Positions 10,440 to 64,000 of a DNA stretch of 64,000 nucleotides are shown here, piece after piece. This stretch comes from Opisthocomus hoazin (taxonomy: Eukaryota; Chordata; Aves; Opisthocomiformes; Opisthocomidae), in assembly GCF_030867145.1 (NCBI RefSeq), contig NC_134442.1, positions 7,736,966 through 7,800,965 of the forward strand. Direction: 5' to 3'. The notes below the pieces were generated by a model. The model had not been told where the DNA came from, ran no database searches, and worked only from the letters and a program-made list of their open reading frames with translations. Position 1 is the first letter of the stretch. Every line of letters begins with the position of its first letter. A program made the position numbers and the translations under genes.

Positions 10440-10448
10440 AGGGACCAA

Positions 10449-20282: not shown

Positions 20283-20291
20283 GGGAAGCAA

Positions 20292-26939: not shown

Positions 26940-28492
26940 CCTTCCTCTTCAGAGGGGGTTCTGGATCAGGACAGACTGGATCGATGGGCTGAGGTCAACT
27001 GTATGAGGTTCAACAAGGCCAAGGGCCACATCCTACACTTTGGGCATAACAACCCTACGCAACGCTCCAGGCTTGGGGTGGGGTGGCTGGAGAGCTGCCC
27101 AGCAGAAAAGCATCTGGGGGTATTGGTGGACATCTGGCTGGACATGAGCCAGCAGTGTGCCCAGGTGGCCAAGAAGGCCAACGGCATCCTGGCTTGGATC
27201 AGGAATGGTGTGGCCGTCCTGCCTTGGATCAGGAATGGAGTGGTCATCCTGGCTTGGATCAGGAATGGAGTGGCCATCCTGGCTTGGATCAGGAATGGTG
27301 TGGCCGTCCTGGCTTGGATCAGGAATGGAGTGGCCATCCTGGCTTGGATCAGGAATGGAGTGGCCATCCTGGCTTGGATCAGGAATGGTGTGGCCATCCT
27401 GCCTTGGATCAGGAATGGTGTGGCCATCCTGGCTTGGATCAGGAATGGAGTGGCCATCCTGCCTTGGATCAGGAATGGTGTGGTCATCCTGGCTTGGATC
27501 AGGAATGGTGTGGTCATCCTGGCTTGGATCAGGAATGGTGTGGCCATCCTGGCTTGGATCAGGAATGGAGTGGCCATCCTGGCTTGGATCAGGAATGGAG
27601 TGGCCATCCTGCCTTGGATCAGGAATGGAGTGGCCATCCTGGCTTGGATCAGGAATGGTGTGGCCATCCTGGCTTGGATCAGGAATGGAGTGGCCATCCT
27701 GGCTTGGATCAGGAATGGAGTGGCCGTCCTGCCTTGGATCAGGAATGGAGTGGCCATCCTGGCTTGGATCAGGAATGGTGTGGCCATCCTGCCTTGGATC
27801 AGGAATGGTGTGGCCATCCTGGCTTGGATCAGGAATGGTGTGGCCATCCTGCCTTGGATCAGGAATGGTGTGGCCATCCTGCCTTGGATCAGGAATGGTG
27901 TGGCCATCCTGGCTTGGATCAGGAATGGTGTGGCCAGCAGGAGCAGGGAGGGGATCGTGCCCCTGTGCTCGGCACAGGTGAGGTTGCACCTCGAGTGCTG
28001 TGTGCAGTTTTGGGATCCTCGGCGTAAGAAAGACATCGAGGTGCTGGAGCGTGTCCAGAGAAGAGCAAAGAGGCTGGTGAGGGGCCTAGAGCACAAGTCT
28101 TACAAGGAGCGACTGAGAGAGCCGGGGCTGTTTAGTGTGAAGAAGAGGAGGCTGAGGGGAGACCTTCTTGCTCTCTACAACTACCTGAAAGGAGGTTGTA
28201 GTGAGGCAGGTGGTGGTCTCTTCTCCCAAGTGATAGGACAATAGGCAATGGCCTCCAGTTGCATCGGGGGAGGTGCAGATTGAATATTAGGAAAAAATTT
28301 CTTTACTGGAAGAGTGGTCAGGCATTGGAACAGGCTGCCCAGGGCGGTGGTGGAGTCACCATGCCTGGAGGGGTTACAAAAACCGTGTAGCTGTGGCACT
28401 TTGGGACATGGTTTAGTAGGCCTGGTTGTGTTGGGTTGACTTGATGATCTTAGGGGTGTTTCCCACCCTGAATGATTCCATGATTCCATGCT
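26940..28492 (+). mobile_element. CR1 LINE carrying an internal 25-copy 30-bp expansion
   Basis: A CR1 3' part: RLDRWAEVNCMRFNKAKG, then SCPAEKHLGVLVD, the expanded segment (27186-27935), then [36 protein letters not shown] and the 3' UTR ending in ATTCCATG octamers at 28471-28492. The 440-codon open frame 26922-28244 spans the expansion without a stop, because the unit is exactly ten codons. The element has no catalytic domain and cannot move itself. Confidence 0.9.
27186..27935 (+). repeat. 30-bp minisatellite inside CR1, 25 copies
   Basis: Twenty-five copies of a 30-bp unit built on TTGGATCAGGAATGG encode LAWIRNGVAI-like decapeptides. Variation is limited to a few positions (GG/CC before TTGG, GTG/GAG, CCATCC/CCGTCC/TCATCC). 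A normal CR1 has this segment (ILAxIRNSVAS) once, so the array arose by local amplification within the element. Confidence 0.95.
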
Positions 28493-30525: not shown

Positions 30526-31436
30526 ATTGATGGAGTTAGTTATCGATTTACTGGCTTATTGATTTATTACTGTTTATTTATTCACTAATTTACTTATTTA
30601 TTCATTTATTCATTTACTAATTTATTTATTTATCTATTTACTTATTTATTTATTTACTTACTTTACTTATTTATTTATTTACAATTTACTAATTTATTTA
30701 TTTACGGATTTATTTATTTATTCATCTACTAATTTATTTGTTTACCAATTTACTTATTTATTCATTTACTAATGTATTTATTTATTCATCTATTGACTAA
30801 TGTATTTATTCATTTATTCCTATTTATTTATTTACTAATTTACTTATTTATTCACTCACTAATTTATTTATTTACTTATTTATTTACTTACTAATTTACT
30901 TACGTATGTACTTACTAAGTCATTTATTTACTAATTCATTTACTCATTTATTCATTCATTTATTTACTAATTTATTTATTTATTTACTAATTTACTTATT
31001 CCTTTACTAATATATTTATTTACCAATTTATTCACTTATTTATTTATTTACCAATTTATCTGTTTCTTTCCTTATTCATTTATTTGCTAATTTACTTCTT
31101 TATTTCCCAATTTATTTATTTATTTACTTATTTATTTACTAATTTATTCATTTACTAATTTGTTTATTTATTTACTAATTTAGTTATTTACTTATTTCTT
31201 TACTAATACATTTATTTACCAATTTATTCATTTATTTATTCATTTACCAATTTATCTGTTTCTTTACTTATTCATTTATTTGCTAATTTACTTCTTTATT
31301 TGCCAATTTATTTATTTACTGACTTATTTATTTATTTACTAATTTATTCATTTACTTATTTATTTATTACTAATTTCTACGTTTATTACCAATATATTTC
31401 TTTATTTACTTACCAATTTGTTCATTTACCAATCAC
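30526..31436. repeat. TTTA-rich low-complexity array
   Basis: Degenerate (TTTA/TTCA/CTAA)n sequence, almost free of G, covers 0.9 kb. Tetranucleotide phasing dominates with frequent ACTAATTTA interruptions. No coding content. Confidence 0.9.
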
Positions 31437-31530
31437 AGACTGGGACACCCCCCCGCAGTTCCCACTCTGTCTTCTTCTCCCCGCTTCCGCGTCCCTTTGG
31501 GCTTCCCTGGGCGCCGCGAGGATCTCCTGT

Positions 31531-34005
31531 CAGATGTTCCTCAGCGGTTCCTCAGCCTGGGACTCAGAGGAACCTCCTGGCCTGAGCTGCCATGGCTGCT
31601 GGGGAAGGGGGAGGAGCTTGTTCTCCTGTCAGATGTTCCTCAGCGGTTCCTCAGCCTGGGACTCAGAGGAACCTCCTGGCCTGAGCTGCCATGGCTGCTG
31701 GGGAAGGGGGAGGAGCTTGTTCTCCTCTCAGATGTTCCTCAGCGGTTCCTCAGCCTGGGACTCAGAGGAACCTCCTGGCCTGAGCTGCCATGGCTGCTGG
31801 GGAAGGGGGAGGAGCTTGTTCTCCTGTCAGATGTTCCTCAGCGGTTCCTCAGCCTGGGACTCAGAGGAACCTCCTGGCCTGAGCTGCCATGGCTGCTGGG
31901 GAAGGGGGAGGAGCTTGTTCTCCTGTCAGATGTTCCTCAGCGGTTCCTCAGCCTGGGACTCAGAGGAACCTCCTGGCCTGAGCTGCCATGGCTGCTGGGG
32001 AAGGGGGAGGAGCTTGTTCTCCTGTCAGATGTTCCTCAGCGGTTCCTCAGCCTGGGACTCAGAGGGACCTCCTGGCCTGAGCTGCCATGGCTGCTGGGGA
32101 AGGGGGAGGAGCTTGTTCTCCTGTCAGATGTTCCTCAGCGGTTCCTCAGCCTGGGACTCAGAGGAACCTCCTGGCCTGAGCTGCCATGGCTGCTGGGGAA
32201 GGGGGAGGAGCTTGTTCTCCTCTCAGATGTTCCTCAGCGGTTCCTCAGCCTGGGACTCAGAGGGACCTCCTGGCCTGAGCTGCCATGGCTGCTGGGGAAG
32301 GGGGAGGAGCTTGTTCTCCTCTCAGATGTTCCTCAGCGGTTCCTCAGCCTGGGACTCAGAGGGACCTCCTGGCCTGAGCTGCCATGGCTGCTGGGGAAGG
32401 GGGAGGAGCTTGTTCTCCTCTCAGATGTTCCTCAGCGGTTCCTCAGCCTGGGACTCAGAGGGACCTCCTGGCCTGAGCTGCCATGGCTGCTGGGGAAGGG
32501 GGAGGAGCTTGTTCTCCTGTCAGATGTTCCTCAGCGGTTCCTCAGCCTGGGACTCAGAGGAACCTCCTGGCCTGAGCTGCCATGGCTGCTGGGGAAGGGG
32601 GAGGAGCTTGTTCTCCTCTCAGATGTTCCTCAGCGGTTCCTCAGCCTGGGACTCAGAGGAACCTCCTGGCCTGAGCTGCCATGGCTGCTGGGGAAGGGGG
32701 AGGAGCTTGTTCTCCTGTCAGATGTTCCTCAGCGGTTCCTCAGCCTGGGACTCAGAGGAACCTCCTGGCCTGAGCTGCCATGGCTGCTGGGGAAGGGGGA
32801 GGAGCTTGTTCTCCTGTCAGATGTTCCTCAGCGGTTCCTCAGCCTGGGACTCAGAGGAACCTCCTGGCCTGAGCTGCCATGGCTGCTGGGGAAGGGGGAG
32901 GAGCTTGTTCTCCTGTCAGATGTTCCTCAGCGGTTCCTCAGCCTGGGACTCAGAGGGACCTCCTGGCCTGAGCTGCCATGGCTGCTGGGGAAGGGGGAGG
33001 AGCTTGTTCTCCTGTCAGATGTTCCTCAGCGGTTCCTCAGCCTGGGACTCAGAGGAACCTCCTGGCCTGAGCTGCCATGGCTGCTGGGGAAGGGGGAGGA
33101 GCTTGTTCTCCTCTCAGATGTTCCTCAGCGGTTCCTCAGCCTGGGACTCAGAGGAACCTCCTGGCCTGAGCTGCCATGGCTGCTGGGGAAGGGGGAGGAG
33201 CTTGTTCTCCTGTCAGATGTTCCTCAGCGGTTCCTCAGCCTGGGACTCAGAGGAACCTCCTGGCCTGAGCTGCCATGGCTGCTGGGGAAGGGGGAGGAGC
33301 TTGTTCTCCTCTCAGATGTTCCTCAGCGGTTCCTCAGCCTGGGACTCAGAGGGACCTCCTGGCCTGAGCTGCCATGGCTGCTGGGGAAGGGGGAGGAGCT
33401 TGTTCTCCTGTCAGATGTTCCTCAGCGGTTCCTCAGCCTGGGACTCAGAGGAACCTCCTGGCCTGAGCTGCCATGGCTGCTGGGGAAGGGGGAGGAGCTT
33501 GTTCTCCTCTCAGATGTTCCTCAGCGGTTCCTCAGCCTGGGACTCAGAGGGACCTCCTGGCCTGAGCTGCCATGGCTGCTGGGGAAGGGGGAGGAGCTTG
33601 TTCTCCTCTCAGATGTTCCTCAGCGGTTCCTCAGCCTGGGACTCAGAGGGACCTCCTGGCCTGAGCTGCCATGGCTGCTGGGGAAGGGGGAGGAGCTTGT
33701 TCTCCTGTCAGATGTTCCTCAGCGGTTCCTCAGCCTGGGACTCAGAGGAACCTCCTGGCCTGAGCTGCCATGGCTGCTGGGGAAGGGGGAGGAGCTTGTT
33801 CTCCTCTCAGATGTTCCTCAGCGGTTCCTCAGCCTGGGACTCAGAGGGACCTCCTGGCCTGAGCTGCCATGGCTGCTGGGGAAGGGGGAGGAGCTTGTTC
33901 TCCTGTCAGATGTTCCTCAGCGGTTCCTCAGCCTGGGACTCAGAGGAACCTCCTGGCCTGAGCTGCCATGGCTGCTGGGGAAGGGGGAGGAGCTTGTTCT
34001 CCTCT
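31531..34005 (+). repeat. 99-bp minisatellite, exactly 25 copies
   Basis: The unit begins CAGATGTTCCTCAGCGGTTC and is repeated 25 times with practically two variable sites: TGTCAG/TCTCAG at the junction and GAGGAACC/GAGGGACC inside. Because 99 is a multiple of three, two plus-strand frames stay open across the array (945 and 872 codons). These frames have no recognisable domain, and the first starts inside TTTA-rich sequence, so I do not call a gene. Confidence 0.97.
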
Positions 34006-34324
34006 CAGATGTTCAAGTCACAAGACTTGAAGGACCAGCAGAGAAGGCTCCGGTCTCTGCCTGTGCTCACTACAGGGAAGAGGCCCCAGGGCACTCATCA
34101 CCAACCAGCCAATAGCAACCACCACTTCCAGCACTGACTGCTCACCACATCTTGGAGACATTTTTCCCTCCGTGGAGGGACACCAGGTCAGAAGTTCATG
34201 TTTGCTTTGTATGGACAAGACCTACGCATGCACCTTGTGCCCTCCAGAGGGACCTTGAAGAGCTTGAGATGTGGGTGTCTGCAAACATCTTGGAGTTTGG
34301 AAAGGCAGCAAGGAGAACTGGAAG
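34006..34324. other. Non-repetitive spacer
   Basis: Unique-looking sequence between the 99-bp array and a CR1 tail. No gene recognised. Confidence 0.5.
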
Positions 34325-34660: not shown

Positions 34661-34744
34661 GACAGCCATTTCTCCAAACCTTCATGACTGAGCAGTGCAG
34701 GACCAAAAGGAAGCGTAATCATTGAGTGGCTACAAAATCCAGGT

Positions 34745-35362
34745 ATCCATGAAAGCTGAAATGAATCCAACAAATCTATCCATGAAAGCTCAAATGGATC
34801 CAACAAATCTATCCATGAAAGCTCAAATGGATCCAACAAATCTATCCATGAAAGCTCAAATGAATCCAACAAATCTATCCATGAAAGCTCAAATGAAGCC
34901 AACAAATCTATCCATGAAAGCTCAAATGAATCCAACAAAGCTATCCATGAAAGCTCAAATGAAGCCAACAAATCTATCCATGAAAGCTCAAATGAATCCA
35001 ACAAATCTATCCATGAAAGCTGAAATGAAGCCAACAAAGCTATCCATGAAAGCTCAAATGGATCCAACAAATCTATCCATGAAAGCTCAAATGGATCCAA
35101 CAAATCTATCCATGAAAGCTCAAATGGATCCAACAAATCTATCCATGAAAGCTCAAATGAAGCCAACAAATCTATCCATGAAAGCTCAAATGAAGCCAAC
35201 AAATCTATCCATGAAAGCTCAAATGGATCCAACAAATCTATCCATGAAAGCTCAAATGGATCCAACAAATCTATCCATGAAAGCTCAAATGAAGCCAACA
35301 AAGCTATCCATGAAAGCTCAAATGAAGCCAACAAATCTATCCATGAAAGCTCAAATGAATCC
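34745..35362 (+). repeat. 33-bp minisatellite, about 18.7 copies
   Basis: The unit reads ATCCATGAAAGCTCAAATG plus AATCCAACAAATCT, encoding MKAQMNPTNLS-like undecapeptides. Variants are GATCC/AATCC/AAGCC and AATCT/AAGCT. The frame is open through the array but there is no sign of a gene around it. Confidence 0.95.
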
Positions 35363-46597: not shown

Positions 46598-46628
46598 ATG
46601 ACGCCCCCGCGCCTCGTCCCGCTGCTGG
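46598..46628 (+). CDS. Ig receptor exon 1: signal peptide, first part
   Basis: ATG in a strong Kozak context (GGCCGCCATGA) starts MTPPRLVPLL, followed by the donor GTGAGC at 46629. The exon ends after the first base of a codon (phase 1), matching the next exon. Confidence 0.82.
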
Positions 46629-49600
46629 GTGAGCCCCGCCCCCGCCCCCTCCCCCGCGCCGGCCCCAGCCCCGTTGCCGACCTTTTTACCCATTTCTGCC
46701 TTTTTTTCCCCGTTTCTGTCCTTTTTCCCCCATTTCTGCCCTTTTTTCCACCATTTCTATCCATTTTTGCCCATTTCTGCCCAATTTTGCCCATTGCTGT
46801 CCAATTTTCCCCATTTCTGCCCAATTTTCCCCATTTCTGCCTTTTTTTCCCATTTCTACCCTTTTTTTCCCATTTCTGGCTGCTTTTGTCCCGATGTCTT
46901 CCTTTTTTTCCGCATTTCTGACCTTTTTTGACCCATGTCTGCCCTTTTTCCCCCATTTCTGTCCGTTTTTACCCATTTTTGTCCTTCTTTTCCCATTTCT
47001 GGCCTTTTTTTAACCATTTCTGTGCTTTTTTCCCCTATTCCTGACCGCTTTCCCCCATTTCTGACTTTTTTTACCCATTCCTAACCTTTTCTCCCCATTT
47101 CAGACCTTTTCCCCCCAATTTTGGTCCTTTTTTCCCCATTTCTGGTCTTTTTTGCCAATTTCTGGCCTTTTCTCCCCATTTCTGACCCGTTTTCCCCCAT
47201 TTTGGTCCTTTTTTTCCCCATTTCTGTCCTTTTTTTCCCCAATTCCTGTGCATTTTTCCCCATTTCTGAAGTATTTTCCCAATTTTGGACCATTTTTAAC
47301 CAATTTCTGCCTTGTTTTTACCAATTCCTGACCTTTTCTCCCCATTTCCTTCCTTTTTTAACCAATGCCTGTACATTTTTCCCCATTTTCGATTTTTTTT
47401 CTCCATTTTGGTCTTTTTTTTGCCCATTTCTGACCATTTCCCCATTTCTGACCTTTTCCTCCCAATTTCTGGCCTTATTTGCCAATTTCTGGCATTTTTT
47501 TCCACACTTCTGACCCATTCTCCCCATTTCTGACCCATTTTTCACCATTTTTGTCCTTTTTTCCCCATTTCTGGCATTTTTTTCCCCCATTTTGGTCCCT
47601 TTTATCCCCATTTCTGGCCTTTTCCCCCCATTTTGGTGCTTTTTTCCCCATTTTGGAATTTTTTTGCCCATTTCTACCCTTTTTCCCCCTTTTTGGTTCT
47701 TGTTTTGCCCATTTCTGGCCTTTCTTCCCCATTTCTGACCCTTTCCCCCCATCTTGGTGCTTTTTTCCCCATTTCGGACCTTTTTTGTCCCAATTTCTTA
47801 CTTTTTTCCCATTTCTGGCCTTTTTTTACCCATTCTGGTCCCTTTTTGCCCATTTCTGGCCTTTTTTACCCATTTCTGTGCTTTTTCCCCCATTTCTGTG
47901 CTTTTCCCCCCCATTTCGGTGCTTTTTTCCCCATTTTGGACCTTTTTTGACGCGATTTCTTCCCTTTTTTCCCCATTTCTGTCCCTTTTTTCCCCATTTC
48001 AGTATTTTTTCGCCCATTTCTGTCCATTTTCACCCATTTTGGTCCTTTTTTCCCCATTTCTGGCCTTCTTTTACCCATTTCTGTGCTTTTTTCCCCCATT
48101 TCTGACTGTTTTCACCCCATTTCCGCTCTTTTTTCCCTATTTCTGCCCTTCTTCCCCCATTTTGGTCCCTTTTTCCCCATTTCGGACCCCTTTTGTCCCG
48201 ATTTCTTCCTTTTTTTCCCATTTCTGCCCTTTTTTTACCCATTTCTGGCCTTTTCTACCCGCTCCTGACCTTTTTTTTTCCATTTCTGACTGTTTTTTTC
48301 CCAATTTCTTCCTTTTTTTCCCATTTCTGCCCTTTTTCCCTTGTTTCTTCCCTTTTCACCCCATTTCTGCCCTTTTTTCCCCATTTCTGACTTTTTCCCC
48401 CCATTTTGGTCCCTTTTTCCCCATTTTGGCCTCTTTTGTCCCCATTTCTGACTGTTTTCACCCATTTCTAACCTTTTCCCCCATTTTGGGTCCTTTTTTC
48501 CTCATTTCTTCCTCTTTTTTCCCCATTTCTTCCCCTTTTTTACCCATTTTGATCCCTTTTTCCCCACTTCAGACCTCTTTTGCCCATTTTGGTCCCTTTT
48601 TCCTAATTTCTGCCCCTTTCCCCCCATTTCTGCCCCTTTTTTCCTACATTTCTGACCTTTTTTGACCCATTTCTGGCCTTTTTTGCCCCATTTTGATGCT
48701 TTTTTTCCCCATTTTGGACCCTTTTTGTCCCAATTTCTTCCTTTTTTCCCCATTTTCTGGCCCTTTTTACCAATTTCGGTGCTTTCTTCCCCGTTTCGGA
48801 CATTTTTTCCCCATTTCTGCCCTTTTTTAAACCTATTTCTGTCCTTTTTTACCCATTTCTGAACTTTTTTCCCCCATTTCTGGCCTTTTCCCCCCATTTT
48901 GGTCCTTTTTTCCCATTTCTGTCCTTTTTTACTCATTTCTGACCTTTTTTCCCCATTTCAGTCCTTTTTTTCCCATTTTTTACCTTTTTCTCCATTTCTG
49001 CCCATTTTTTACCTATTTTAGCCCTTCTTTTTACCCATTTCTGCTCTTTTTTTCCCCATTTCTGTCCCTTTTTTCCCCATTTTGGACCTTTTTCCCCCAT
49101 TTCTCCCCTTTTTTACCTATTTCTGTCCGGGTTTTACGCATTTTGCTCATTTTCTCCCCATTTCTGCCCTTTTTTCCCTATTTTGGACCTTTTTTCCCCA
49201 TTTCTGCTCTTCTTTACCCATTTCTGACTTTTTTTCCCCAATTTCTACCCTTTTTTCCCCGATTTCTTCCCTTTTTTCCCCAATTTCTCCCCTTTTTTCC
49301 CCAATTTCTGCCCTTTTTCCCCAATTTTTCTTTTTTTCCCCAATTTCTTCGTTTTCCCCAATTTCTCCGTTTTCCCCAATTTCTCCCTTTTTCCAATTTC
49401 TTCCCTTTTTTCCCAATTTCTGCCCTTTTTTCCCCAATTTCTGCCCTTTTTTCCCAATTTCTGCTCTTTTTCCCCAATTTCTTCCTTTTTCCCCCAATTT
49501 CTTCCTTTTTCCCCCAATTTCTTCCTTTTTTCCCCAATTTCTCCCCTTTTTTCCCCAATTTCTTCCCTTTTTTCCCAATTTCTCCCCTTTTTTCCAATTT

Positions 49601-52600
49601 CTTCCCTTTTTCCCCAATTTCTCCCCTTTTTTCCCCAATTTCTGCCCTTTTTCCCCAATTTCTTTCTTTTTTTCCCCAATTTCTTCCCTTTTTCCAATTT
49701 CTTCCCTTTTTTCCCAATTTCTGCCCTTTTTTCCCCAATTTCTGCCCTTTTTTCCCAATTTCTTCCTTTTTTCCCCAATTTCTTCCTTTTTTTCCCAATT
49801 TCTGCCCTTTTTCCCCAATTTCTCCCCTTTTTCCCCCAATTTCTTCCCTTTTTTCCCAATTTCTCCCCTTTTTTCCAATTTCTTCCCTTTTTCCCCAATT
49901 TCTTCCCTTTTTCCCCAATTTCTTCCCTTTTTCCCAATTTCTTCCTTTTTTCCCCAATTTCTTCCTTTTTTCCGAAATTTCTTTTTCCAATTCTTCACAC
50001 ATTTTTCCCCATTTCTTCCCTTTTTCCCCCATTTTCCCTTTTCCCCCCATTTCTTTCCCTTTTCCCCCGTTTTTTCCCTTTTCCCCCATTTTCCCCCATA
50101 TTTAATTTTTCATTTTTCTGAATTTTTCATGTCCATTTTTCCATTTTCCTTCCCGCCCCTCCCCCAGCCTCCCTCCAGCTCCTCCTCCCGCCGGCCGCCC
50201 CCACCGGTAACGCCTTTTGGGCCCAAAAACCTCATTTCCGCCGGTCACGTGACCGCCCGCGGCCCCGCCCGCCCCAAATCCGGCGGATTCCGCCCCAAAA
50301 TCCCGGGCGGGGCCGGGCTGAACCCCCAAAAACTGCCCGAATGCCCCAAAAGAGCCCTTTTTACCAGAATCGGGGGTTTTCTCCTCAATCGGCTCCCATC
50401 TCACCCCCCCGCCGGTCAAAAACAGCAATTTTGGGGAAAATTGGGTGCTTTCTCCTCAATCTGCTCCTCTCCACCTACCAAAAAAAACCGATTTTTAGGA
50501 AAATCCCGTGGTTTCTCCTCAATCTGGTCACCTCTGACCTCCTCCGCCCACCAAAAATCTCCATTTTCATCAGAATCTGGTGGTTTCTCCTCAATCTGGG
50601 CCTGTCCAACCACCAAAAATATCAATTTTGGGGAAAATCCCGTGGTTTCTCCTCAATCTGGTCCTGTCCAACCACCAAAAATATCAATTTTGGGGAAAAT
50701 CCCGTGGTTTCTCCTCAATCTGGTCCTGTCTGACCACCAAAAATATCAATTTTTTAGGAAAATCCCGTGGTTTCTCCTCAACCTGGTCCCATCCCATCTC
50801 CTCTCCCCACCAAAAATACCAATTTTGGGGAAAATCCGCTGGTTTCTCCTCAATCTCATCCTATCTGACCTCCCCCACCCGCCAAAAATACCAATTTTGG
50901 GGAAAAATGGGCGGTTTCTCCTCAATCTGGGCCTGTCCAACCCCCAAAAATCTCAATTTTTAGGAAAATCCCGTGGTTTCTCCTCAATCCGGTCCCACCT
51001 CACCTCCTCCACCCACCAAAAATATCAATTTTTAGGAAAATCCGGTGGTTCCTCCTCAATCTGGTCCTGTCCAACCACCAAAAAATCCAATTTTTAGGAA
51101 AATCGGGCGGTTTCTTCGCATTCTGGTCCCCTCCAACCACCAAAAATATCAATTTTCATCAGAATTGGGTCGTTTCTCCTCAGTCTGGTCCCGTCTCACC
51201 TCCTCTGCCTGTCAAAAGCATCAATTTTTGAGAAAATCTTCTGGTTTCTCCTCATCTTGTCCTGTCCCACCTCCTCCACCCACCAAAAATACCAATTTTT
51301 GGGAAAATCCAGTGGTTTCTCCTCAATCTGGTCCCATCTCACCTTCTCCACCTGTCAAAAATAGCAATTTTTAGGAAAATCACGGGGTTTCTGCTCAATC
51401 TGGTCCTGTCTCACCTCCCCACCCACCAAAAATATCAATTTTCACCAGAACTGGGTGGTTTCTCCTCATTCTGGTCACGTCTAACCACCAAAAATAGCGA
51501 TTTTTACCAAAATCAGGAGATTTCTCCTCAATCTTGTCCCACCTCACCTCCTTCACCTGCCAAAAACATCAACTTTTAGGAAAATCCCGTGGTTTCTCCT
51601 CAATCTGGTCCTGTTCCATCTCCTCCACCCACCAAAAAAATCAATTTTTAGGAAAATCCACTCTTTTCTCCTCAATCTGGTCCTGTCCAACCCCCCAAAA
51701 AATCAATTTTTAAGAGATTTGGGTGGTTCCTCCTCAATCTGGTCCCATCTCACCTTCTCCACCTGTCAAAAACAGCAATTTTTAGGAAAATGAGGCAGTT
51801 TCTCCTCAATCTGCTACTGTCCAACCACAAAAAATATCAATTTTCAGTAAAATTGGGTGGTTTCTCCTCAATCTGGTCCTATTTGACCTCATTCACCCAC
51901 CAAAAACACCAATTTTTAGGGAAATCCCATGGTTTCTCCTCAATCTGGTCCCGCCCCACCACCAAAAAATCCAATTTTTAGGAAAATGCCGTGGTTTCTC
52001 CTCAATCTGGTCCTGTCTCATCTTCTCCAACCACCAAAAATATCAATTTTTAAAAATTTGGGTGGTTCCTCCTCATCCTGGTCATGGTCCCACCACCAAA
52101 AATTCCAATTTTTAGGAACATCTGGTGGTTCCTCCTCAATCTGGTCCCATCTCACCTCCTCCACCTGCCAAAAATAGAAATTTTTAGGAAAATCAGGCGG
52201 TTTCTCCTCACTCTGCTACTGCACAACCACCAAAAATATAAATTTTTAAAAATCTGGGTGGTTCCTCCTCATCCTGGTCATGGTCCCACCACCAAAACTT
52301 CCAATTTTTAGGAAAATCTGGTGGTTTCTCTTCAATCTGCTCACGTCTCACCACCAGAAATTCCAAATTTGGGGAAAATCCGGTGGTTTCTCCTCAATCT
52401 GGTCCCGCCCCACCACCAAAAAATCCAATTTTTAGGAAAAAGCCGTGGTTTCTCCTCAATCTGGTCCTGTCTCATCTTCTCCAACCACCAAAAATATCAG
52501 TTTTTAAAAATCTGGGTGGTTCCTTCTCATCCTGGTCATGGTCCCACCACCAGAAATTCCAAATTTGGGGAAAATCCAGTGGTTTCTCCTCAATCTGCTC

Positions 52601-55600
52601 ATGTCCACCAAAAATTCCCATTTTCATCAGAATTGGGTGGTTCCTCCTCAATCTGGTCCCATCTCCCCACCAAAAACGTCCATTTTGAGGAGAACCGGGC
52701 GGTTCCTCCTCCGTCTCACCCCGCCCCTCCCCCTCTTCCCCTCCCCCAGCCCCTCCCCCCCGCCCCCTCCATCTCCATCACCCCCGAGAAGCCGCAGTAC
52801 CTGATTGGCGACGCCGTCTCCCTCCGCTGCCTGGCTCCGCCCACCCAGAAGGTCCAGGGCTTCCAGTTCACGGCCACCAGCGGTTGGGCGGCCCACGCCG
52901 TCGTCGCCGGCAGGAGGCGGAGCTACGTCTACGCCTTCAACGTCACGGGGCCGCGCGACGGCGGGGCGCACGCCTGCGCCTACACCGTCCTCGACCGCGC
53001 CCGACGCCCCGTCCGCTCCATCCTCATCAACGTCAAAGGTAGGGGAGATGCCACCACCAAACCCAACGTCCAACCCAACAGCTTCATCCCGGCCTCAAAA
53101 CGCGGCGGTTTCTCCTCAAAACATGGTGGTTACTCTTGGGTCGTGGACACCCCAACGCCGTTGACCATGATCAACCTTCTCGGGTCTTGGACCCCCCCAA
53201 TGCGTTGACCATGGTCAACCTTCTTGCAGACCCCCAAAGGTTTCTCCTCCAAATGCGGCCATTTCTGCTCCAAACGCAGCCGTTTTCTCCTCAAAACGCG
53301 GCGGTTTCTCTTGGGTCTTGCACCCCCCAACACCGTTAACCATGGTCAACCTTCTTGTAGACCCCCAAAGGTGTCTCCTCAAAACGCAGCCGCTTTTTCT
53401 CAAAACGCGGCGGTTTCTCCTCAAAACGAGGTGGTTTCTCCTCAAAATCTGGCGGTTTCTCCTCAAAACGCGGCCGTTGCTTCTCGAAACATGCCCATTT
53501 CTCCTCAAAACGCGCCGGTTTCTCCTCAAAATGCGGCAGTTTCTCCTCAAAACGCGCCATTTCTCCTCAAAACGCGCCATTTCTCCTCAAAACGCGGCCA
53601 TTTCCCATTTCTCCTCAAAAAGTGGCCGTTTCTCCTCAAAACGCGGCCGTTTCTCCTCAAAACGCGGCCGTTTCTCCTCAAAACGTGGCCATTTCTCCTC
53701 AAAACGCGGCCTTTTCTCCGCAAAATGTGTCGGTTTCTGGTTTCTCCTCAAAACGCGGCCGTTTCTCCTCAGAACATGGTAGTTTCTCCTCAAAATGCGG
53801 CGGTTTCTCCTCAAAACGCGGCCGTTTCTCCTCAGAACATGGCGGTTTCTCCTCAAAATGCGGCAGTTTCTCCTCAAAACGCGGCCGTTTCTCCTCAGAA
53901 CATGGCGGTTTCTCCTCAAAACGCGGCGGTTTCTCCTCAGAACGCGGCCGTTTCTCCTCAAAATGCAGCGGTTTCTCCTCAAAACGCGGCCGTTTCTCCT
54001 CAGAACATGGCGGTTTCTCCTCAAAATGCGGCTGTTTCTCCTCAAAACGCGGCCGTTTCTCCTCAGAACATGGCGGTTTCTCCTCAAAATGCGGCGGTTT
54101 CTCCTCAGAACATGGCCGTTTCTCCTCAAAACGCGGCTGTTTCTCCTCAAAACATGGCGGTTTCTCCTCAGAACGCGCCAACGCTGCCCGCCGCGCTCCG
54201 CGGGTAAAACCTCCGTTCTTCCCGAGTCCCCAAACCCTCACGTTTTTGGGGTCGTTTCGCTACTCCGCCCCCAGATCGCCCACCTCGACCCACGCTGACC
54301 TTGACGTCCTCCACCGGCATGGCGGTGCAAGGCCACGCCCTCGCCTTCCTCTGCGCGGCGCCGGCGGCCGACGGCGAGCGGCGCTTCCACTTCGCCAGGG
54401 AAGGAGGCGGGGCGGTGGGCGGGGCCACGGTGGCGACCTCGGCCAATGGGGAGGCGCGGCTCGACGTGGCGAAGAGCGAGGCCAACCACACGGGGAACTT
54501 CACCTGCGGCTACGAGGAGAAGACCGAGGGGCGGTGGATCGCCTCCTACCCCAGCCCGCCCGTCGCCGTCGTCGTCATCGGTAACGATTTGGGGAGAAAA
54601 CGGGGGGGGTGGGGGGTGGGGGGAGGGGCAGGCGGGGGAGGGGAGGGGGAGGGGCGGGAGGTCTTCTCCAGGCGGTGCTGCCCCACCTTGGCCAAATGCT
54701 AGAAATGGGAATTTTGGGGGAGGAACGGGAGGTTTCTCCTCAAAATGGTCCCACCTCACTTCCCCCACCCGTCAAAAATATCAATTTTTAGGAAAATTCG
54801 GTGGTTTCTCCTCAAGCTGGTCCTGTCCCACCACCAAAAATATCAATTTTTAGGAAAATCATGGGGTTTCTCCTCAACCTGCTCCATCTCACCACCTCCA
54901 CCCACTAAAAATTCCAATTTTGGAGAAAATTCGATGGTTTCTCCTCAACCTAGTCCTGGCCCACCACCAAAATTCCAATTTTTCGGAAAATCCGGTGGTT
55001 TCTCCTCAACCTGGTCCCATCTTACCTCCTCAAACCACCAAAAATATCAATTTTTAAGAGATCTGGGTGGTTTCTCCTCAATTTGGACCTGCCCCACCAG
55101 CAAAAATACCGATCTTCAGGAGAATCAGTTGGTTTCTTCTCAATCTGGTCCTGTCCAACCACCAAAAATGTCAATTTTTATGACAATCATGAAGTTTCTC
55201 CTCAATCTTGTCCCGTCTCAGCTGCTCCACCCACCAAAAACATCGATTTTTTAGGAAAATTGGGTGGTTCCTCCTCAACCTGGTCCCATCTCTTCTCCTC
55301 CAACCACCAAAAATAGCAATTTCTAAGAAAATTGTGGGATTTTTCCTCAATCTGGTCCTGTCCAACCACCAAAAATATCAATTTTTAGGAAAATCCGGTG
55401 GCTCCTCCTCCATCTCATCCCACCCAAGCTTGTCCCACCACCAAAAATCCCAATTTTTAAGAAAATATGGTGATTTCTCCTCAATCTGGTCCTCTCCACC
55501 CACCAAAATTCCAATTTGTAGGAAATCTGGTGGTTTCCCCTCAATCTTGTCCTGTCCAACCTTGTCTACCCACCAAAAATCCCAATTTTTAAGAAAATCG

Positions 55601-58600
55601 TGGGATTTCTCCTCAATCTCGTCCTGTCCCACGACCAAAAACATCAATTTTTAGGAAAATCGGGTGGTTTCTCCTCAACCTTGTCCTGTCCACCCACCAA
55701 AAATTCCAATTTTTAGGAAAATCCAGTGCTTTGTCTTCAATCTGGTCCTGTCCCACCACCAAAAATATCAATTTTGAGGAAAATCATGGGGTTTCTCCTC
55801 AACCTGCTCCCATCTCACCACCTCCACCCACTAAAAATTCCAATTTTGGAGAAAATTCGATGGTTTCTCCTCAATCTGGTCCTGTCCAACCACCAAAAAT
55901 ATCAATTTTTAAGAAAATCTGGTGGTTTCTCCTCAACGTGGTCCCATCTGACCTCATCCACCCACCAAAATTAGCAATTTTTAGCAGAATCAAGGGGTTT
56001 CTCCTCAATTCAGTCCCGTCCCATCTCTTCCAACACCAAACACATCAATTTTGGGGAAAATCTTATGCTTTCTGCTCAATGTGGTCCTCTCCACCCACCA
56101 AAATTCCACTTTTTAGCAAAATTTGGTGGTCTCTCCTCAATCCTGCCCCGTCCAACCACCAAAAATCTCAATTTTTTAGGAAAATCCGGTGGTTTCTCCT
56201 CAATCTGGTCCCATCTCACCTCCTCAACCTGTCAAAAACATCAATTTTTAGGAAAATCCGGTGGTTCCTCCTCAATCTCGCCCTGTCCAATCTCGTCTAC
56301 CCACCAAAAATCCCGATTTTGAAGAAAATCGTTGGATTTCTCCCCAATCTGGACCTGTCCCACCACCAAAAATGTGAATTTTGGGGAAAACTGTGGGATT
56401 TTACCTCAATCTGGACCTGTCCACCACCACAAATGTGAATTTTGGGGAAAATTGTGGCATTTTACCTCAATCTGGACCATCCCGCCACAAAAAATGTGGA
56501 TTTTGGGGAAAATTGTGGCATTTTACCTCAATCTGGACCCGTCCCGCCACCAAAAATGTGAATTTTTAGAAAATTCTTGGATTTCTCCCCAATCCGGTCC
56601 CGTCCCACTACCAAAAATCCCAATTTTTAGCAAAACCCGGCGTTTGCCCCTCCCCCCGGCCCCGCCCCCTCTCACGGCCGCTCCCCCTCCCCCGCAGCGG
56701 CTGCCCCCCGCCCCCCGCCTGTCCGTCGACCCGCCCGGCGGCCTGCTCAGCGAATCGTACCCCCTCGGCCTCACTTGCTCCGCCTCCCGCGCCTCCTTCC
56801 CCGCTCCGCTTCCGCTTCTTCCGCGACGGGGCGGAGCTCCCGCCGGCAGGGGGCGGGGCCTCGCCGACCGACACCGCCTCCTCCGGGAGCTCCGCCCACC
56901 TCCTCGTCCCGCGAAGCCCCCGGCGTTTCGGCGGGAAGTTCAGCTGCGGGGTGGAGGAGGAGGTGGGCGGGGCCTGGGTGGCCACGCCCCGCAGCGACGC
57001 CGTCGAGGTCATCGTCAAGGGTAGGTGGGGCCACGCGGGGTGGGGGGGGAGGGGGAGGCCGGTTTTTGGGGGAAAAAAGGCCCAAATTGGGGGGGACTGG
57101 TGGTGGGGAAGGGGGCTGGAGCTCCATATCGCGACGAGGAGCTTCATGTCACGACGAGGAGCTCCATCTTCTGATGATGATGAGTTCCACGTCACGATGA
57201 TGAGCTCCATCTCGTGATAGTGAGCTCCACCTCACGATGAGGAGTTCCACCTCACGACGATGAGTCCCATGTCATGACGATGAGCTCCATCTCGTGACGA
57301 TGAATCCCAGGTCATGATGATGAGCTGCGTCTCACGACAAGTCCCATGTCACGATGATGAATTCCATCTCGTGACCAATAAGTCCCATCTCACGATGATG
57401 ACCTGCATCTCGTGACTGTGAATCTCATGTCATGACGATGAGCTCCATCTCGTGACGATGAGCTCCATCTCGTGACGATCAGCTGCGTCTCACGATGATT
57501 TCCACGTCATGACAATGACTCCCATGTCACAACGCTGAGCTCTATCTCACGACGATGAGCTCCACCTCATGATGATGCACCTCATGATGATGAGCCGCAC
57601 ATCATGACGATAACTTGCCTGTCATGATAATAAATCTCGTATCATGACGAGTCCCACCTCATGATGATCAGCTCCATCTCATGATGATGAGCTGCTGCAC
57701 GTCGTGACGACGACCTCCCTGTCATGATAAGTCCCACGTCATGAGTCTGACCTTGTGACGATGAGCTTCACCTCATGATGAGTCTCATGTCACGACGAGT
57801 CCCATGTCACGACGATGAGCTTCATCTCGTGACGACTCCCATGTCATGACGAGTCCCACCTCATGACGAGTCCCACGTCACGACAACGACTGCCATGTCA
57901 TGACAACGAGCTTCAACTCATGACGATGACTCCCATGTCATCACGACTCCCATGTCACGACGGTGAGTCCCAAGTCGTGACAAGTCCCACCTCATGACAA
58001 TGAGTCCATGTCACGATGGCGAATCCCGTGTCATGACGAGCTCCACCTCATGATGAGGAGCCCCACGTCACGACGATGAGACCCATATCACGACGATGAG
58101 ACCCCTGTCGTGACGATGAGCTCACCTCACAACGAGCTCCATATCATGACGAACCCCATGTCGTGACGCCGAGTCCCCTGTCGTAACGACGAGCTCCCTG
58201 TCACGACGACCCCCACGTCACGACGCCCAATCCCACCTCACCGCCGCCCCCCACCCCACCCGCTGACGACAAACCCCGCCCCCTCCCCCTTGGCCCCGCC
58301 CCCGTCTCTCCCCAGACCTCCCCCCCCCGCCCGCCCTCCTCCTGGACCCCCCGTCGGGCCGCGTCGCGGAGGGCGCCCCCTTGCTGCTGACCTGCGCCGC
58401 CGCCGCGCCCCCCGCCCCGCGCCGCTTCGCCTTCTACAAAGATGGCGGCCAGGCCTACGCCGCCGACGCCGCCGCCGACCACGCCCACTTCCGCCTCGCC
58501 GCCGCCACCCCCGCCCTGGCCGCCGGCCGCTTCTCCTGCCGCTACGAGGAGAAGGTGGGCGAGAGGTGGGTCCCGTCGCCCGCCAGCCAACCGGTGACCG

Positions 58601-59833
58601 TCCTCGTCCAAGGTGAGCCCCGCCCACCCACCAAACCGAGGCTCTGAGGACCTCCAGGGCCTTCACGGCCCTCCCAAGGGCTTGGGGTGGGTCAGCAAAA
58701 ACCTCATTGGCCCGAGGAACCTTCTGGTGGCCTCAAAAATAGGGGGAAATGGGGGATTTGGGGGTGGGTGGGCGGAGCTTGACCTCCTCCAGCCAATCCA
58801 TGGCGGTCCTCACCCAAGACAAGCTCCACCCACCCAACCAATGGAGGTTCTGAAGACCTCGAAGACCTTCACGGCCCTCCCAAGGGCTTGGGGTGGGTCA
58901 GCAAGAACCTCATTGGCCCAAGGAACCTTCTGGAGGCCTCAAAATTGGGGAGATATGGGGGATTTGGGGGTGGGTGGGCGGAGCTTGACCTCCTCCAGCC
59001 AACCCATGGTGGTCCTCGCCCAAGACAAGCTCCACCCACCCAACCAATGGAGGTTCTGAAGACCTCGAAGACCTTCACGGCCCTCCAAAGGGCTTGGGGT
59101 GGGTCAGCAAGAACCTCATTGGCTGGAAGAACCTCCTGGTGGCCTCAAATTTGGGGGGAAATGGGGGTTTTGGGGGTGGGTGGGCAGAGCTTGACCTCCT
59201 CCAGCCAACCCATGGTGGCCCTCGTGTGAGCTGACCAGGAACCTCATTGGCTGGAGGAACTTTCCAGCAGCCTCAGGATTGGTGGAAATCGGGGCTTTTC
59301 GGAGGTGGGGTGGGACCTAGGGGCTGAAGCCCCGCCCCAGGGGTCACCAAGAGGGGAAGGGGGAGGAGCTCCTGGTGGGACGGAGGCGGTCGCTCACCTT
59401 TGGGCTTCCTGATTGGCTGTCTCTCTGTCCACCAGCCCGCTCTCAGCTGATCCCGTTGGCCGCCGGCTGCGCCGCTGGTGCCGCCGCGTTGCTCCTGGGG
59501 CTCCTATTGGTCGTTTGCCTGTGCCGGAGGCGGAGAGGTGAGCGGCGGGGGCGGGGCTTGGGGCGGGCAACAGAGGAGGCGGGGAAAGGACGTGGGTGAC
59601 GCCCAGGAGAAGACACCAGGTCGAGAACCCCGCCCACCTCCTTCCCGATTGGAGGACCCCTGTAACAGCACCCGCCCCCCCAGAAAAACTGACCAATCAC
59701 GGCGCCGCGGGGGGCGGGGGCACCTTCCAACCCGCCCCTCCCCCACGCAGGCTCCGCCCACTGGAAGGGTCTCCACAACAAGGACGACCCCGGCGCCTAC
59801 CCCATGGCCAGCGTCAGTGCCAGCGACCTCTGA
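46598..59833 (+). CDS. Four-Ig-domain cell-surface receptor, leukocyte-receptor/FcR-like (8 exons)
   Basis: The spliced model is 46598-46628, 50168-50206, 52750-53038, 54275-54580, 56698-57020, 58316-58612, 59436-59537 and 59751-59833. Every border is GT-AG. It encodes a signal peptide split over two exons, four C2-like Ig domains, a transmembrane helix and a short tail, about 487-489 residues. Split signal exons and phase-1 Ig exons are typical of leukocyte-receptor-complex and Fc-receptor genes. Domains share GRFSC.YEE and W..S..S..V.V patterns like the WSxPS region of that superfamily. The ligand is unknown. Exons 3 and 5 contain three one-base frame discrepancies in C-rich runs, which may be assembly errors or real damage. 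No plus-strand poly(A) hexamer was seen in the 3' flank. I do not recognise the orthologue. Confidence 0.8.
46629..50167 (+). repeat. Intron 1: about 20-bp pyrimidine minisatellite (TTTTTCCCCATTTCTGCC)
   Basis: From about 46683 to 50110 the intron consists of hundreds of degenerate copies of TTTTTCCCCATTTCTGCC; from 49240 on the unit shifts to TTTTTTCCCCAATTTCTTCC. The coding strand is almost free of purines except A in the ATTT core. Long frames on either strand (PFFPNF- or GKKGRNW-like) are repeat artefacts. Confidence 0.9.
50168..50206 (+). CDS. Ig receptor exon 2: signal-peptide mini-exon
   Basis: This 39-base exon lies between the acceptor CCTCCCCCAG and the donor GTAACG. Joined in phase to exon 1 it continues the signal peptide as ASLQLLLPPAAPT. 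A mini-exon of about 36-39 bases here is a hallmark of leukocyte-receptor-type genes. Confidence 0.78.
50207..52749 (+). repeat. Intron 2: 62-75-bp minisatellite
   Basis: From 50355 to about 52700, tandem units read CCACCAAAAATATCAATTTT, then GGAAAATCCGGTGGTTTCTC, then CTCAATCTGGTCCTGTC. The same family fills intron 4. No exon was found within it. Confidence 0.9.
52750..53038 (+). CDS. Ig receptor exon 3: Ig domain 1
   Basis: The domain reads SISITPEKPQYLIGDAVSLR with first cysteine in LRC, a strand C region FQFTATSGW, an N-glycosylation site FNVT, and the second cysteine in GGAHACAY; it ends INVK before the donor GTAGGG. The acceptor CTCCCCCAG is unambiguous, but the Ig frame begins at codon position 1 whereas exon 2 leaves phase 1, so one base is surplus, probably in the C7 run at 52755-52761. 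Read literally, exons 3 and 4 would be translated out of the Ig frame without meeting a stop. Confidence 0.8.
53039..54274 (+). repeat. Intron 3: 21-bp minisatellite (TTTCTCCTCAAAACGCGGCCG)
   Basis: From 53096 to 54182 the intron is made of about fifty 21-bp units, TTTCTCCTCAAAA plus CGCGGCCG or a variant, open in all phases as SPQNAAV-type repeats. Two short pieces of the 35/38-bp array (53145, 53325) are embedded. The CpG density is striking for an intron. Confidence 0.9.
54275..54580 (+). CDS. Ig receptor exon 4: Ig domain 2
   Basis: In phase with exon 3 (K-D join). It reads RPTLTLTSSTGMAVQGHALA with first cysteine in FLC, strand C as RFHFAREG, overlapping glycosylation sites NHT and NFT, second cysteine in FTCGYEE, and W-ASYPSPPVAVVV at the end; donor GTAACG. 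306 bases, symmetric phase 1. Confidence 0.85.
54581..56697 (+). repeat. Intron 4: 62-75-bp minisatellite, same family as intron 2
   Basis: From 54720 to 56640 copies of the CCACCAAAAAT / GGTTTCTCCTCAATCTGG unit recur; the last part (56340-56600) is a more homogeneous 62-bp subset with GGGGAAAATTGTGGCATTTT. No exon within it. Confidence 0.9.
56698..57020 (+). CDS. Ig receptor exon 5: Ig domain 3 (frame discrepancies)
   Basis: The first half reads RLSVDPPGGLLSESYPLGLT with cysteine in TCSAS. The second half, one base out of frame from about 56806, reads RFRFFRDGAELPAGG, then GGKFSCGVEEEVGGAWVA and ends EVIVK before the donor GTAGGT. The beginning is also one base out of phase with exon 4. Removing one base at each place would give a 321-base symmetric exon. 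The domain itself is convincing; whether the shifts are real is open. Confidence 0.75.
57021..58315 (+). repeat. Intron 5: about 20-bp minisatellite (CATGACGATGAGCTCCATCT)
   Basis: From 57118 to 58235 degenerate units of CTCATGACGATGAGTCCCAT are repeated. TGACGA and GTCATGAC motifs recur in each. No exon within it. Confidence 0.9.
58316..58612 (+). CDS. Ig receptor exon 6: Ig domain 4 (membrane-proximal)
   Basis: In phase 1 at both ends, 297 bases. It reads ALLLDPPSGRVAEGAPLLLT with first cysteine in TCAAA, RRFAFYKDGG in strand C, GRFSCRYEEKVGERWVPSP with the second cysteine, and ends VTVLVQ before the donor GTGAGC. It has no internal stop or shift. Confidence 0.88.
58640..59240 (+). repeat. 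206-bp tandem repeat in intron 6, about 3 copies
   Basis: Copies start 206 bases apart (CTTGGGGTGGGTCAGCAA at 58681, 58887 and 59093). Each copy carries an ATTGG/CCAAT motif. It occupies most of intron 6 (58613-59435). Confidence 0.93.
59436..59537 (+). CDS. Ig receptor exon 7: transmembrane segment
   Basis: The exon encodes ARSQLIPLAAGCAAGAAAL followed by LLGLLLVVCLCRRRR: one hydrophobic helix of about 23 residues with a basic stop-transfer cluster. No charged residue lies within the membrane, so pairing with FcR-gamma or DAP12-type adaptors through an arginine or lysine is not indicated. Phase 1 on both sides, donor GTGAGC. Confidence 0.86.
59751..59833 (+). CDS. Ig receptor exon 8: short cytoplasmic tail and stop
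   Basis: After the acceptor CCCCCACGCAG the frame continues in phase as GSAHWKGLHNKDDPGAYP, then MASVSASDL and TGA. The single tyrosine (AYPMAS) does not fit an ITIM or ITSM. The tail has about 27 residues after the basic cluster. Confidence 0.8.
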
Positions 59834-60177
59834 CCTCGGCGGCGACCCGGCCCACGCCCCCCCAAAGAGCCTCCCTCATTGGCCGCCTCAGGCCCCGCCC
59901 TGCCGGTCACTAAACACCTCGCCAAACCCTCGTTCGCCTCGGGAGCCAAGATGGCCGACGGGGCGGGGAGGGGGGAGGAGCGGCGGGAGGGGGCGGGAAG
60001 ATGGTGGCGGCGGGCTCGGGGGGGACAACGGGGTTGGCCAACGCAACCTTGACCAACGCTGCCTTGGCCAATCACCGCCAAGGTGTGGGGGGGAGGGGGG
60101 AGGGGAAGGGGGCGGGGCCATCGCGGGTCTTACCTGGGAGGGGGGCAGCGCGGCAGCGCAAGATGCTTCTCGGCGCA
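59834..60177 (+). promoter_or_regulatory. 3' region of the Ig gene merging into a CpG-rich, YY1-like patch
   Basis: No AATAAA or ATTAAA follows the stop codon. CCAAGATGGCCG (59946) and GGAAGATGGTGGCGGC (59997) resemble YY1 sites and lie with GGGGCGGGG boxes in a CpG-rich context, as in housekeeping promoters. No exon was recognised. Confidence 0.35.
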
Positions 60178-61345
60178 CAAAATGGCGGCCTGAGCCCCCC
60201 AAAATGGCTTCCCGCCCCCCAAAATGGCGGCCTGAGCCCCCCAAAATGGCGGCCTGAGCCCCCCAAAATGGCTTCCTGCCCCCCAAAATGGCGGCCTGAG
60301 CCCCCCAAAATGGCTTCCTGCCCCCCAAAATGGCTTCCCGCCCCCAAAATGGTGGCCTGAGCCCCCCAAAATTGGCGGCCTGAGCCCCCCAAAATGGCTT
60401 CTTGCCCCACAAAATGGCGGCCTGAGCCCCCCAAAATGCCCCCCTGCTCCCCAAAATGGCTTCTTGCCCCACAAAATGGCAGCCTGAGCCCCCAAAATGG
60501 ACTCCTGCCCCCCAAAATGCCCCCTGCTCCCCAAAATGGCTTCTTGCCCCACAAAATGGCCTCCTGCCCCCCAAAATGCCCCCCTGCTCCCCAAAATGGC
60601 TTCTTGCCCCACAAAACGGCCTCCTGCCCCCCAAAATGCCCCCCTGCTCCCCAAAATGGCTTCTTGCCCCACAAAATGCCCCCCTGCCCCCTCCAAAATG
60701 GCCTAATGCCCCCCCAAATGCCCCCCTGGCCCCCCCAAATGCCCTAATGCCCCTCAAACCGCCACCCCGCCCCCCCAAATGGCTCCTAGAGCCTCAAAAT
60801 GGCTTCCTGTTCCCCCAAAATGCCCCCCACCCCCCCAAAATACCCCTTGCCCCCACAAAATGCCCCCTGCCCCCTCCAAAAGGGCCTAATGCCCCACAAA
60901 GTGCCCCCCCGCCCCCAAAATGTCCCCCCAAAAGCCCCCCTAGCCCCCCCAAATGCCCTAATGCCCCTCAAAATGCCCTCCCGCCCCCCAAAATGGCTCC
61001 TAGAGCCTCAAAATGGCTTCCTGCCCCCCAAAATGCCCCTTGCCCCTTTAAAATGCCCCCCTTCCCCCCCAAATGGCCTACTGCCCCTCAAAATGGCTTC
61101 CTGCCCCATAAAATGCCCCCCTGCCCCCACAAAATGGCCTCTGCCCCCACAAAATGCCCCCCTGCCCCTCAATATGCCCCCCTGCCCCCCCAAAATGCCC
61201 CCCCTGCCCCACAAAATGCCCCCCTGCCCCCCAAAATGGCTTCCTACACCCCCAACCCGGCCTCTTGCCCCCCCCAATGCCCCCCTGCCCCCCCAAAATG
61301 GCTTCCTACACCCCCAACCCGGCCTCTTGCCCCCCCAAACGCCCT
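60178..61345 (+). repeat. About 20-bp minisatellite (CCCCCCAAAATGGC) with YY1-type sites
   Basis: Roughly fifty units of CCCCCCAAAATGGCTTCCTG and shortened relatives. Five units carry a perfect AAAATGGCGGC (60179, 60221, 60243, 60285, 60411). The 3' two thirds decay to CCCCCAAAATGCCCCCCTG. Confidence 0.93.
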
Positions 61346-61389: not shown

Positions 61390-61980
61390 GCACTGCGCAT
61401 GCGCGGAGCCCTGAACGGGCGGGGGGGGGCGGTGGCGCGAAGCCTCTGCGCATGCGCACTTCCGGTTCGAGAGGGGCGGGGGAGCGGCGCGAAGCATCTG
61501 CGCATGCGCACTTCCGGTCCGAGAGGGGCGGGGGAGCGGCGCGGAGCAGTTTCGGCAAGGGAGGGGGAGCGGAGCGGGACTGCGCATGCGCAGTTCCGTC
61601 TCAGAGGGGAGGGGGAGCGGACGCGGAGCGCATTCGGGAAGGGAGGGGGAGCGGAGCGGGACTGCGCATGCGCATTTTCTGTCCCGGAGGGGGGGGAGCG
61701 GGCGCGGAGCAGTTTCGGGAAGGGAGGGGGAGAGGAGCGGACTGCGCATGCGCACTTCCGGTCCCGGAGGGGAGGGGGAGCGGGCGCGGAGCAGTTTCGG
61801 GAAGGGAGGGGGAGCGGAGCGGGACTGCGCATGCGCACTTCCAATCCCGGAGGGGAGGGGAGCGGAGCGGGCGCGGAGCAGTTTCGGGAAGGGAGGGGGA
61901 GAGAAGCGGGACTGCGCATGCGCACTTCCAGTCCAGGAAGTGGGGAGCGGCGCGGAGCTGCTGCGCATGCGCAGATGGTT
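61390..61980 (+). repeat. About 82-bp tandem repeat with NRF-1 and ETS sites
   Basis: Units contain GAGCAGTTTCGGGAAGGGAG, then GGGGAGCGGAGCGGGAC and TGCGCATGCGCACTTCCGG. Nine NRF-1 palindromes start at 61394, 61447, 61499, 61581, 61663, 61743, 61826, 61913 and 61962; all but the first are TGCGCATGCGCA. Perfect ETS/GABP sites ACTTCCGG follow at 61458, 61510 and 61754. This looks like an amplified TATA-less promoter module. Confidence 0.85.
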
Positions 61981-62061: not shown

Positions 62062-62067
62062 TTTATT
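62062..62067 (-). terminator. Minus-strand poly(A) signal AATAAA
   Basis: The plus strand reads TTTATT, so a transcript coming from the right would carry AATAAA here in otherwise GC-rich sequence. This suggests the 3' end of a minus-strand gene whose body lies to the right. Confidence 0.4.
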
Positions 62068-63668: not shown

Positions 63669-64000
63669 CTTCAGCCTTGTGCTTCCGGGGGGCGTGGCCT
63701 CGGGCGGGGTGGTGGGCGTGGCCTCAGGGGGCGGGGGAGGGGCTGCCGCGGGACAGGGTGCGGCTCCGCCCCCGCTCGCCCTCCCCCGGAGGCGGAGCTG
63801 GAGAGGGAGGCGGTGCGGGAGCGGAGAGGCGCGTCATGGCCGCCGCCGCCACTTGCCGCAGGGGGAGGGGCCTCGTCAGGGCCACGCCCCCTCCCCGCCG
63901 GGACACGCCCCCCTCCCCGCCGGGCCACGCCCCCTCCCCGGGGGCACCGCCCCCGCCCGCCTCACCCCCCTCCCACACCCCCCCCCAGTACCTGCAAGGA
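63669..64000. other. GC-rich, possibly coding patch at the right edge
   Basis: Both strands are open here and I cannot decide between them. Minus strand: an exon end CAG|GTACTG at 63992, an acceptor-like CTCCCTCTCCAG near 63795 and a frame ending PRQPLPRPL-PPEAQG. Plus strand: ATGGCCGCCGCCGCC from 63836 stays open to the edge, and CCCCCCCCCCAG at about 63988 is a good acceptor. The minus-strand AATAAA at 62062 slightly favours the minus strand. Confidence 0.3.

Follow-up and report, generated by a model that had tools for sequence, protein, structure and literature searches.

The window analysed here, 64,000 nucleotides of DNA from the hoatzin (Opisthocomus hoazin), lies at the very end of a 7,800,965-base contig in a 1.48-Gb assembly. 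It carries on its forward strand a gene that spans positions 46598–59833, from the ATG at 46598 to the end of the stop codon at 59833, with eight exons (31, 39, 289, 306, 323, 297, 102 and 83 nt) separated by seven GT-AG introns. The gene encodes a split hydrophobic leader followed by four immunoglobulin (Ig) domains, a hydrophobic helix that bears no charge and a short tail. About 35 and 25 kb upstream of the gene lie two intact frames for olfactory receptors (Pfam 7tm_4), at 10200–11372 and 20025–21224 respectively, and six olfactory receptor-like frames are recognisable by motif within the final 134 kb of the contig. A LINE-like reverse-transcriptase fragment (PF00078, 58 bits) occupies 6314–7087 on the minus strand. 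Arrays of 30-, 99- and 33-bp units fill 27185–27936, 31523–34014 and 34744–35362, where long frames stay open on one or both strands (one, of 945 aa, runs over 31300–34137); these frames are probably not genes, since every unit length is divisible by three. Shortly before the contig end, an approximately 82-bp tandem array (61434–61958) contains the repeated element TGCGCATGCGCA, which we take to be an NRF1-like promoter motif. An AATAAA on the minus strand at 62062, together with splice-like signals at about 63.8–64.0 kb (63680–64000), hints at a further gene cut by the contig end.

Exon 1 (46598–46628) holds the start codon and the first half of the leader (MTPPRLVPLL), which aligns with bird leaders, and ends in a phase-1 donor; exon 2 (50168–50206), 39 bp long with phase 1/1, provides the second half and aligns without gaps to bird relatives. 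The leader is a prediction, judged by eye and by alignment with relatives. The Ig domains follow at one exon each: a CHIR-like domain 1 (exon 3, 52750–53038, 289 nt), whose frame is mismatched to the exon 2 donor; domain 2 (exon 4, 54275–54580, phase 1/1); domain 3 (exon 5, 56698–57020, 323 nt), mismatched in frame to the exon 4 donor and with a second frame change inside, at about 56799–56807; and domain 4 (exon 6, 58316–58612, phase 1/1), which the Pfam HIDE1 Ig model matches weakly (19.7 bits, short of its cut-off of 23.2). Exon 7 (59436–59537) encodes the uncharged transmembrane helix followed by CLCRRRR, and exon 8 (59751–59833) the cytoplasmic tail SAHWKGLHNKDDPGAYPMASVSASDL and the stop codon. 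Searched singly against Pfam, the exons of the window yield weak Ig matches, all below cut-off. Neither AATAAA nor ATTAAA was found at 59801–61000.

Six of the seven introns are mostly minisatellites. Introns 2 and 4 (50378–52711 and 54731–56635) share one minisatellite family with a unit of about 62/134 bp that includes CCACCAAAAATATCAATTTTTAGGAAAATC, and introns 1, 3, 5 and 6 are composed of other arrays. Open frames alone are little proof of a gene in such GC-rich DNA, where 516 of 2000 shuffled versions of the Ig1 exon were stop-free in one frame. Homology, on the other hand, makes a chance origin untenable: when proteins of Buteo, ostrich and ruff are aligned to the DNA of the window, their four Ig domains and the tail fall in order on the corresponding exons, each exon pairing best with its own domain, and the joined translation without Ig3, used as query, retrieved 50 proteins with E-values from 2.1e-161 to 2.2e-38, of which 45 are from birds, four from turtles and one from another source. 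The structure predicted for the Buteo orthologue has a single helix besides the four Ig domains (mean pLDDT 83.1, pTM 0.55). The four-Ig membrane receptor proposed in the sequence-only reading is borne out.

That reading had also considered the gene unrecognised and could not match its tail or first domain to a named avian receptor. In fact the locus is already in RefSeq, as the uncharacterized locus LOC142364833 of Opisthocomus hoazin, whose protein contains Ig1, Ig2, both parts of Ig3, Ig4, the helix and the tail of the window letter for letter; tail and domain 1 match this entry as well as other database proteins. The RefSeq protein is flagged LOW QUALITY, and its model omits both leader exons (exon 2 included), carries additional residues ahead of Ig1 and of Ig3, and spans the internal break of Ig3. 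Orthologues in other birds share the domain order, the helix and the tail, and are labelled FCRL1–6, A1BG-like, IGSF1, TITIN, LILRB2, hemicentin-2-like or HIDE1. Unlike the hoatzin gene, several of their models lack Ig4 while keeping helix and tail (P0007, P0008, P0027, P0028, P0030 and P0035), be it through gene-model error or exon loss. A literature search returned no paper recognisable as describing this four-Ig gene.

A tree built from 26 rows places the window inside the 13 Neoaves rows (support 100/100); all 16 bird rows form one branch (100/100), and a branch of 21 rows (100/100) unites the birds with four short-tail turtle proteins, as opposed to four other turtle proteins and a skink protein; the tree program flags the letter composition of the window and skink rows as unusual. 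The window therefore belongs with the bird and turtle four-Ig family by domain order, uncharged helix, W...DD...PM tail and tree branch alike. Most bird species appear once in the match lists apart from isoforms (Lonchura striata appears twice, as P0035 and P0050), whereas individual turtle species contribute many proteins each, which suggests one copy in birds and an expansion in turtles.

The hoatzin copy contains three frame breaks, one at the 5' end of Ig1 and two in Ig3. With lengths of 289 nt (1 mod 3) and 323 nt (2 mod 3), neither Ig1 nor Ig3 can be a phase-1/phase-1 exon. Of the consistent borders that had been claimed for the eight exons, the exons themselves, their coordinates and the GT-AG sites stand, but the 5' end of Ig1 and, twice, Ig3 are out of frame. 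If the splice sites are followed strictly, no stop interrupts the message before the final stop codon, but Ig1, Ig2 and the initial third of Ig3 are not read in their own frames. The breaks are most likely sequence errors in the hoatzin assembly. Alternatively, they could be real and the gene a young pseudogene, the receptor having been lost in this species. Three breaks within the coding part, the LOW QUALITY flag, the failure to find a polyadenylation signal within 1.2 kb and a 5-residue gap in Ig1 relative to its homologues all speak for such a loss. Set against it are frames that, once aligned to the relatives, contain no stop and retain all eight of the eight Ig cysteines, the seven GT-AG introns, and the position of two of the three breaks in long C runs, which would be typical of sequence error. 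Moreover, of 64 columns with at least 95% conservation among the other rows, 60 are retained in the window and four are not, much as in eight relatives under the same test (57–61 kept, 0–8 lost). The absence of stops, the cysteines and the conserved columns make an old pseudogene less likely than an error or a defect of very recent origin, and we regard a genuine recent loss as rather unlikely.

The helix and tail were compared across the family. From 111 proteins collected, 78 have a clear hydrophobic stretch, and 26 of these (25 birds and P0010) were picked for a readable tail. The helix is free of charge in the window and in all 26 picked relatives, none of whose tails contains an ITIM, an ITSM or YxxM; a loose ITIM pattern, [SIVL]xYxx[ILV], is likewise absent from the tail of the window and from all 26. 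The earlier description of an uncharged helix without ITIM accordingly holds, and extends to every picked relative. Outside this set, the little owl protein P0048 has an aspartate in its helix and the model P0017 has no helix. The loose ITIM occurs in 10 of the 78 proteins, nine from turtle (two of them short-tail, with SSYSPI) and one from skink with three motifs. ITIM-like tails such as VVYSEI are seen in the turtle and skink proteins P0061, P0066, P0067, P0073, P0102–P0104 and P0106, and by virtue of such tails the family looks like one of paired receptors outside birds. The 26 picked tails follow a pattern resembling W(K/R/S)..(..)DD..(Y/F)PM, in which the tyrosine position is occupied by Y in 16, F in eight, I in one and L in one. 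Mean pairwise identity is 0.61 for the helix and 0.59 for the tail, compared with 0.55–0.56 for the Ig domains (Ig4 from 91 pairs only). The tail is thus conserved, but, given F, I or L in some rows, not through a phosphotyrosine common to all birds.

Where the family belongs among Ig receptors is less clear-cut, and it is best filed as LRC/FcR-like, leaning towards LRC, with a possible link to HIDE1. The LRC/FcR plan with phase-1 Ig exons anticipated for the gene applies in part: the plan is LRC/FcR-like and exon 2, Ig2, Ig4 and the helix exon are 1/1, but the borders of Ig1 and Ig3 are out of phase in this assembly. Among solved sequences, domain 1 of the ostrich orthologue matches CHIR-AB1 (E 2.6e-6, the next match at 0.16), and domain 1 of the window also ranks CHIR-AB1 first, weakly (E 0.013). 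The second signal exon of LRC genes measures 36 bp. The commonest database label, FCRL5, would make this a true Fc receptor-like gene. Besides the names of the matches, it can be argued for from the solved sequences, in which human FCRL5 is the best match of the whole-family profile (161 bits, PirB 85) and the top match of the Ig2 and Ig4 exons of the window, by summing many weak repeats. Nevertheless, a plain FCRL5 label fails on the second signal exon, which is 39 bp here and not the 21 bp that FCR/FCRL genes keep in the portion of the literature consulted (PMC7940838), a length retained by only a fraction of such genes in Xenopus (PMC2413239, likewise in part). The match of domain 1 to CHIR-AB1 and the occupation of Foldseek ranks 1–6 by PirB/LILRB point the same way, and ITIM/ITAM-like motifs, common in FCRL tails and, for ITIMs, overrepresented in FCRL according to an excerpt of PMC4016189, are missing from the tail of the window. 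A true FCRL gene thus appears highly improbable.

Mammalian HIDE1 (C19orf38) offers another identity, of which the gene would be a bird four-Ig form. The Pfam model Ig_C19orf38 (PF17737) scores above its cut-off in the RefSeq hoatzin protein, at 25.8 bits, as well as in seven of seven relatives, and 36 of the 50 proteins of the joined-translation search are listed with it; segments of PirB and FCRL5 give no match to it at E 1, and RefSeq names the Calidris orthologue HIDE1. The model is not specific, however, as it exceeds its cut-off in five proteins beyond those seven relatives, among them an IGSF1-like one from shark and a receptor from skink. The single exons of the window stay below that cut-off, no mammalian protein is among the scored candidates of the family searches, and HIDE1 has one Ig domain, as against four here. 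The neighbours of HIDE1 are CARM1 and TMED1. We consider it unlikely that the gene is a bird form of HIDE1.

Taken together, the architecture, the orthology, the uncharged helix, the lack of an ITIM and the conserved tail are established: the gene is the hoatzin orthologue of a bird and turtle four-Ig type I receptor, probably of mixed LRC/FcR kind, with a CHIR-like first domain. It probably does not signal through tyrosine motifs, and its frame breaks are most likely sequence errors. Its role is best read as recognition or adhesion by an LRC/FcR-type receptor devoid of such motifs, which would be the bird counterpart of a turtle family with ITIM-bearing members. Such a receptor would be displayed on a cell, perhaps a leukocyte, although the cell type is a guess, and its Ig stack would bind a putative ligand. 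As both an ITIM and a charge in the helix are absent, it would signal neither through an ITIM of its own nor through a charged-helix adaptor such as FcR-gamma. The short conserved tail (W-K/R-G ... D-D ... aromatic-P-M), together with the Cys-plus-basic membrane border, may position the receptor or dock a partner; in birds this action need not depend on phosphotyrosine, because phenylalanine replaces tyrosine in songbirds and pigeons. The origin would lie in a paired-receptor family, the bird member of which has presumably lost its tyrosine motif. The sequence-only reading had also raised the possibility of a decoy or cis-acting molecule, which would compete for the ligand of signalling receptors and whose tail would merely anchor it. 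The uncharged helix and the lack of an ITIM in all 26 picked relatives fit such a molecule, as does the existence of ITIM-bearing turtle relatives with similar Ig domains, that is, of a family with both signalling and silent members. A mere anchor would be expected to drift faster than the Ig domains, though, and the tail identity is not below theirs; nor does the last 134 kb of the contig contain a copy that could serve as signalling partner. A pure decoy is weakened because helix and tail show roughly the same degree of conservation as the Ig domains, and is in our view quite improbable.

If the recognition-receptor reading is true, a single conserved four-Ig receptor that seems not to have been studied persists in many birds, hidden under seven unrelated kinds of name. 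Goose is a relative of duck, a lineage without a reported CHIR gene. No homologue of CHIR could be found in zebra finch or duck according to PMC3601082 (abstract and excerpts). The gene with its CHIR-like first domain nevertheless occurs in both zebra finch (P0027) and goose (P0042), making it a candidate stand-in for CHIRs outside game birds. A bolder scenario, which we put forward as speculative, is that a CHIR-like LRC receptor survives across birds, CHIR-less lineages included, and has given up the tyrosine motif represented in turtles by YSPM, SSYSPI and full ITIMs in favour of a phosphorylation-independent W...DD...(Y/F)PM tail; a paired family would thereby have been reduced to one motif-less receptor.

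Several known systems bear comparison. The tails of LILRB proteins carry ITIMs, and mammalian LILRB/PirB hold the top six Foldseek ranks for the Buteo model, with whole-chain TM-scores of only about 0.2 and an identity of about 18%. HIDE1 resembles the family in so far as its Pfam Ig model matches it. The IgY receptor CHIR-AB1, from the chicken LRC, is the only clear match of domain 1 among solved sequences; its solved chain is a single Ig domain, whereas the hoatzin gene has four and neither an activating nor an inhibitory motif. Chicken ggFcR, an IgY receptor on chromosome 20 with four C2-type Ig domains, is alike by description in being avian, of four Ig domains and encoded outside the FcR and LRC clusters (PMC4016189, as excerpted). 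According to the same excerpt ggFcR requires FcR gamma; the hoatzin helix, by contrast, has no charged residue, which argues against an equivalent route. The short-tail turtle relatives (e.g. P0013, P0029, P0076 and P0080) share the Ig type, the PLVAGC helix and a short tail with tryptophan, but differ in having four or more Ig domains, a tail tyrosine in YSPM or SSYSPI, and close paralogues that bear ITIMs. The turtle proteins would lend themselves naturally to comparing ITIM-bearing tails with ITIM-free ones.
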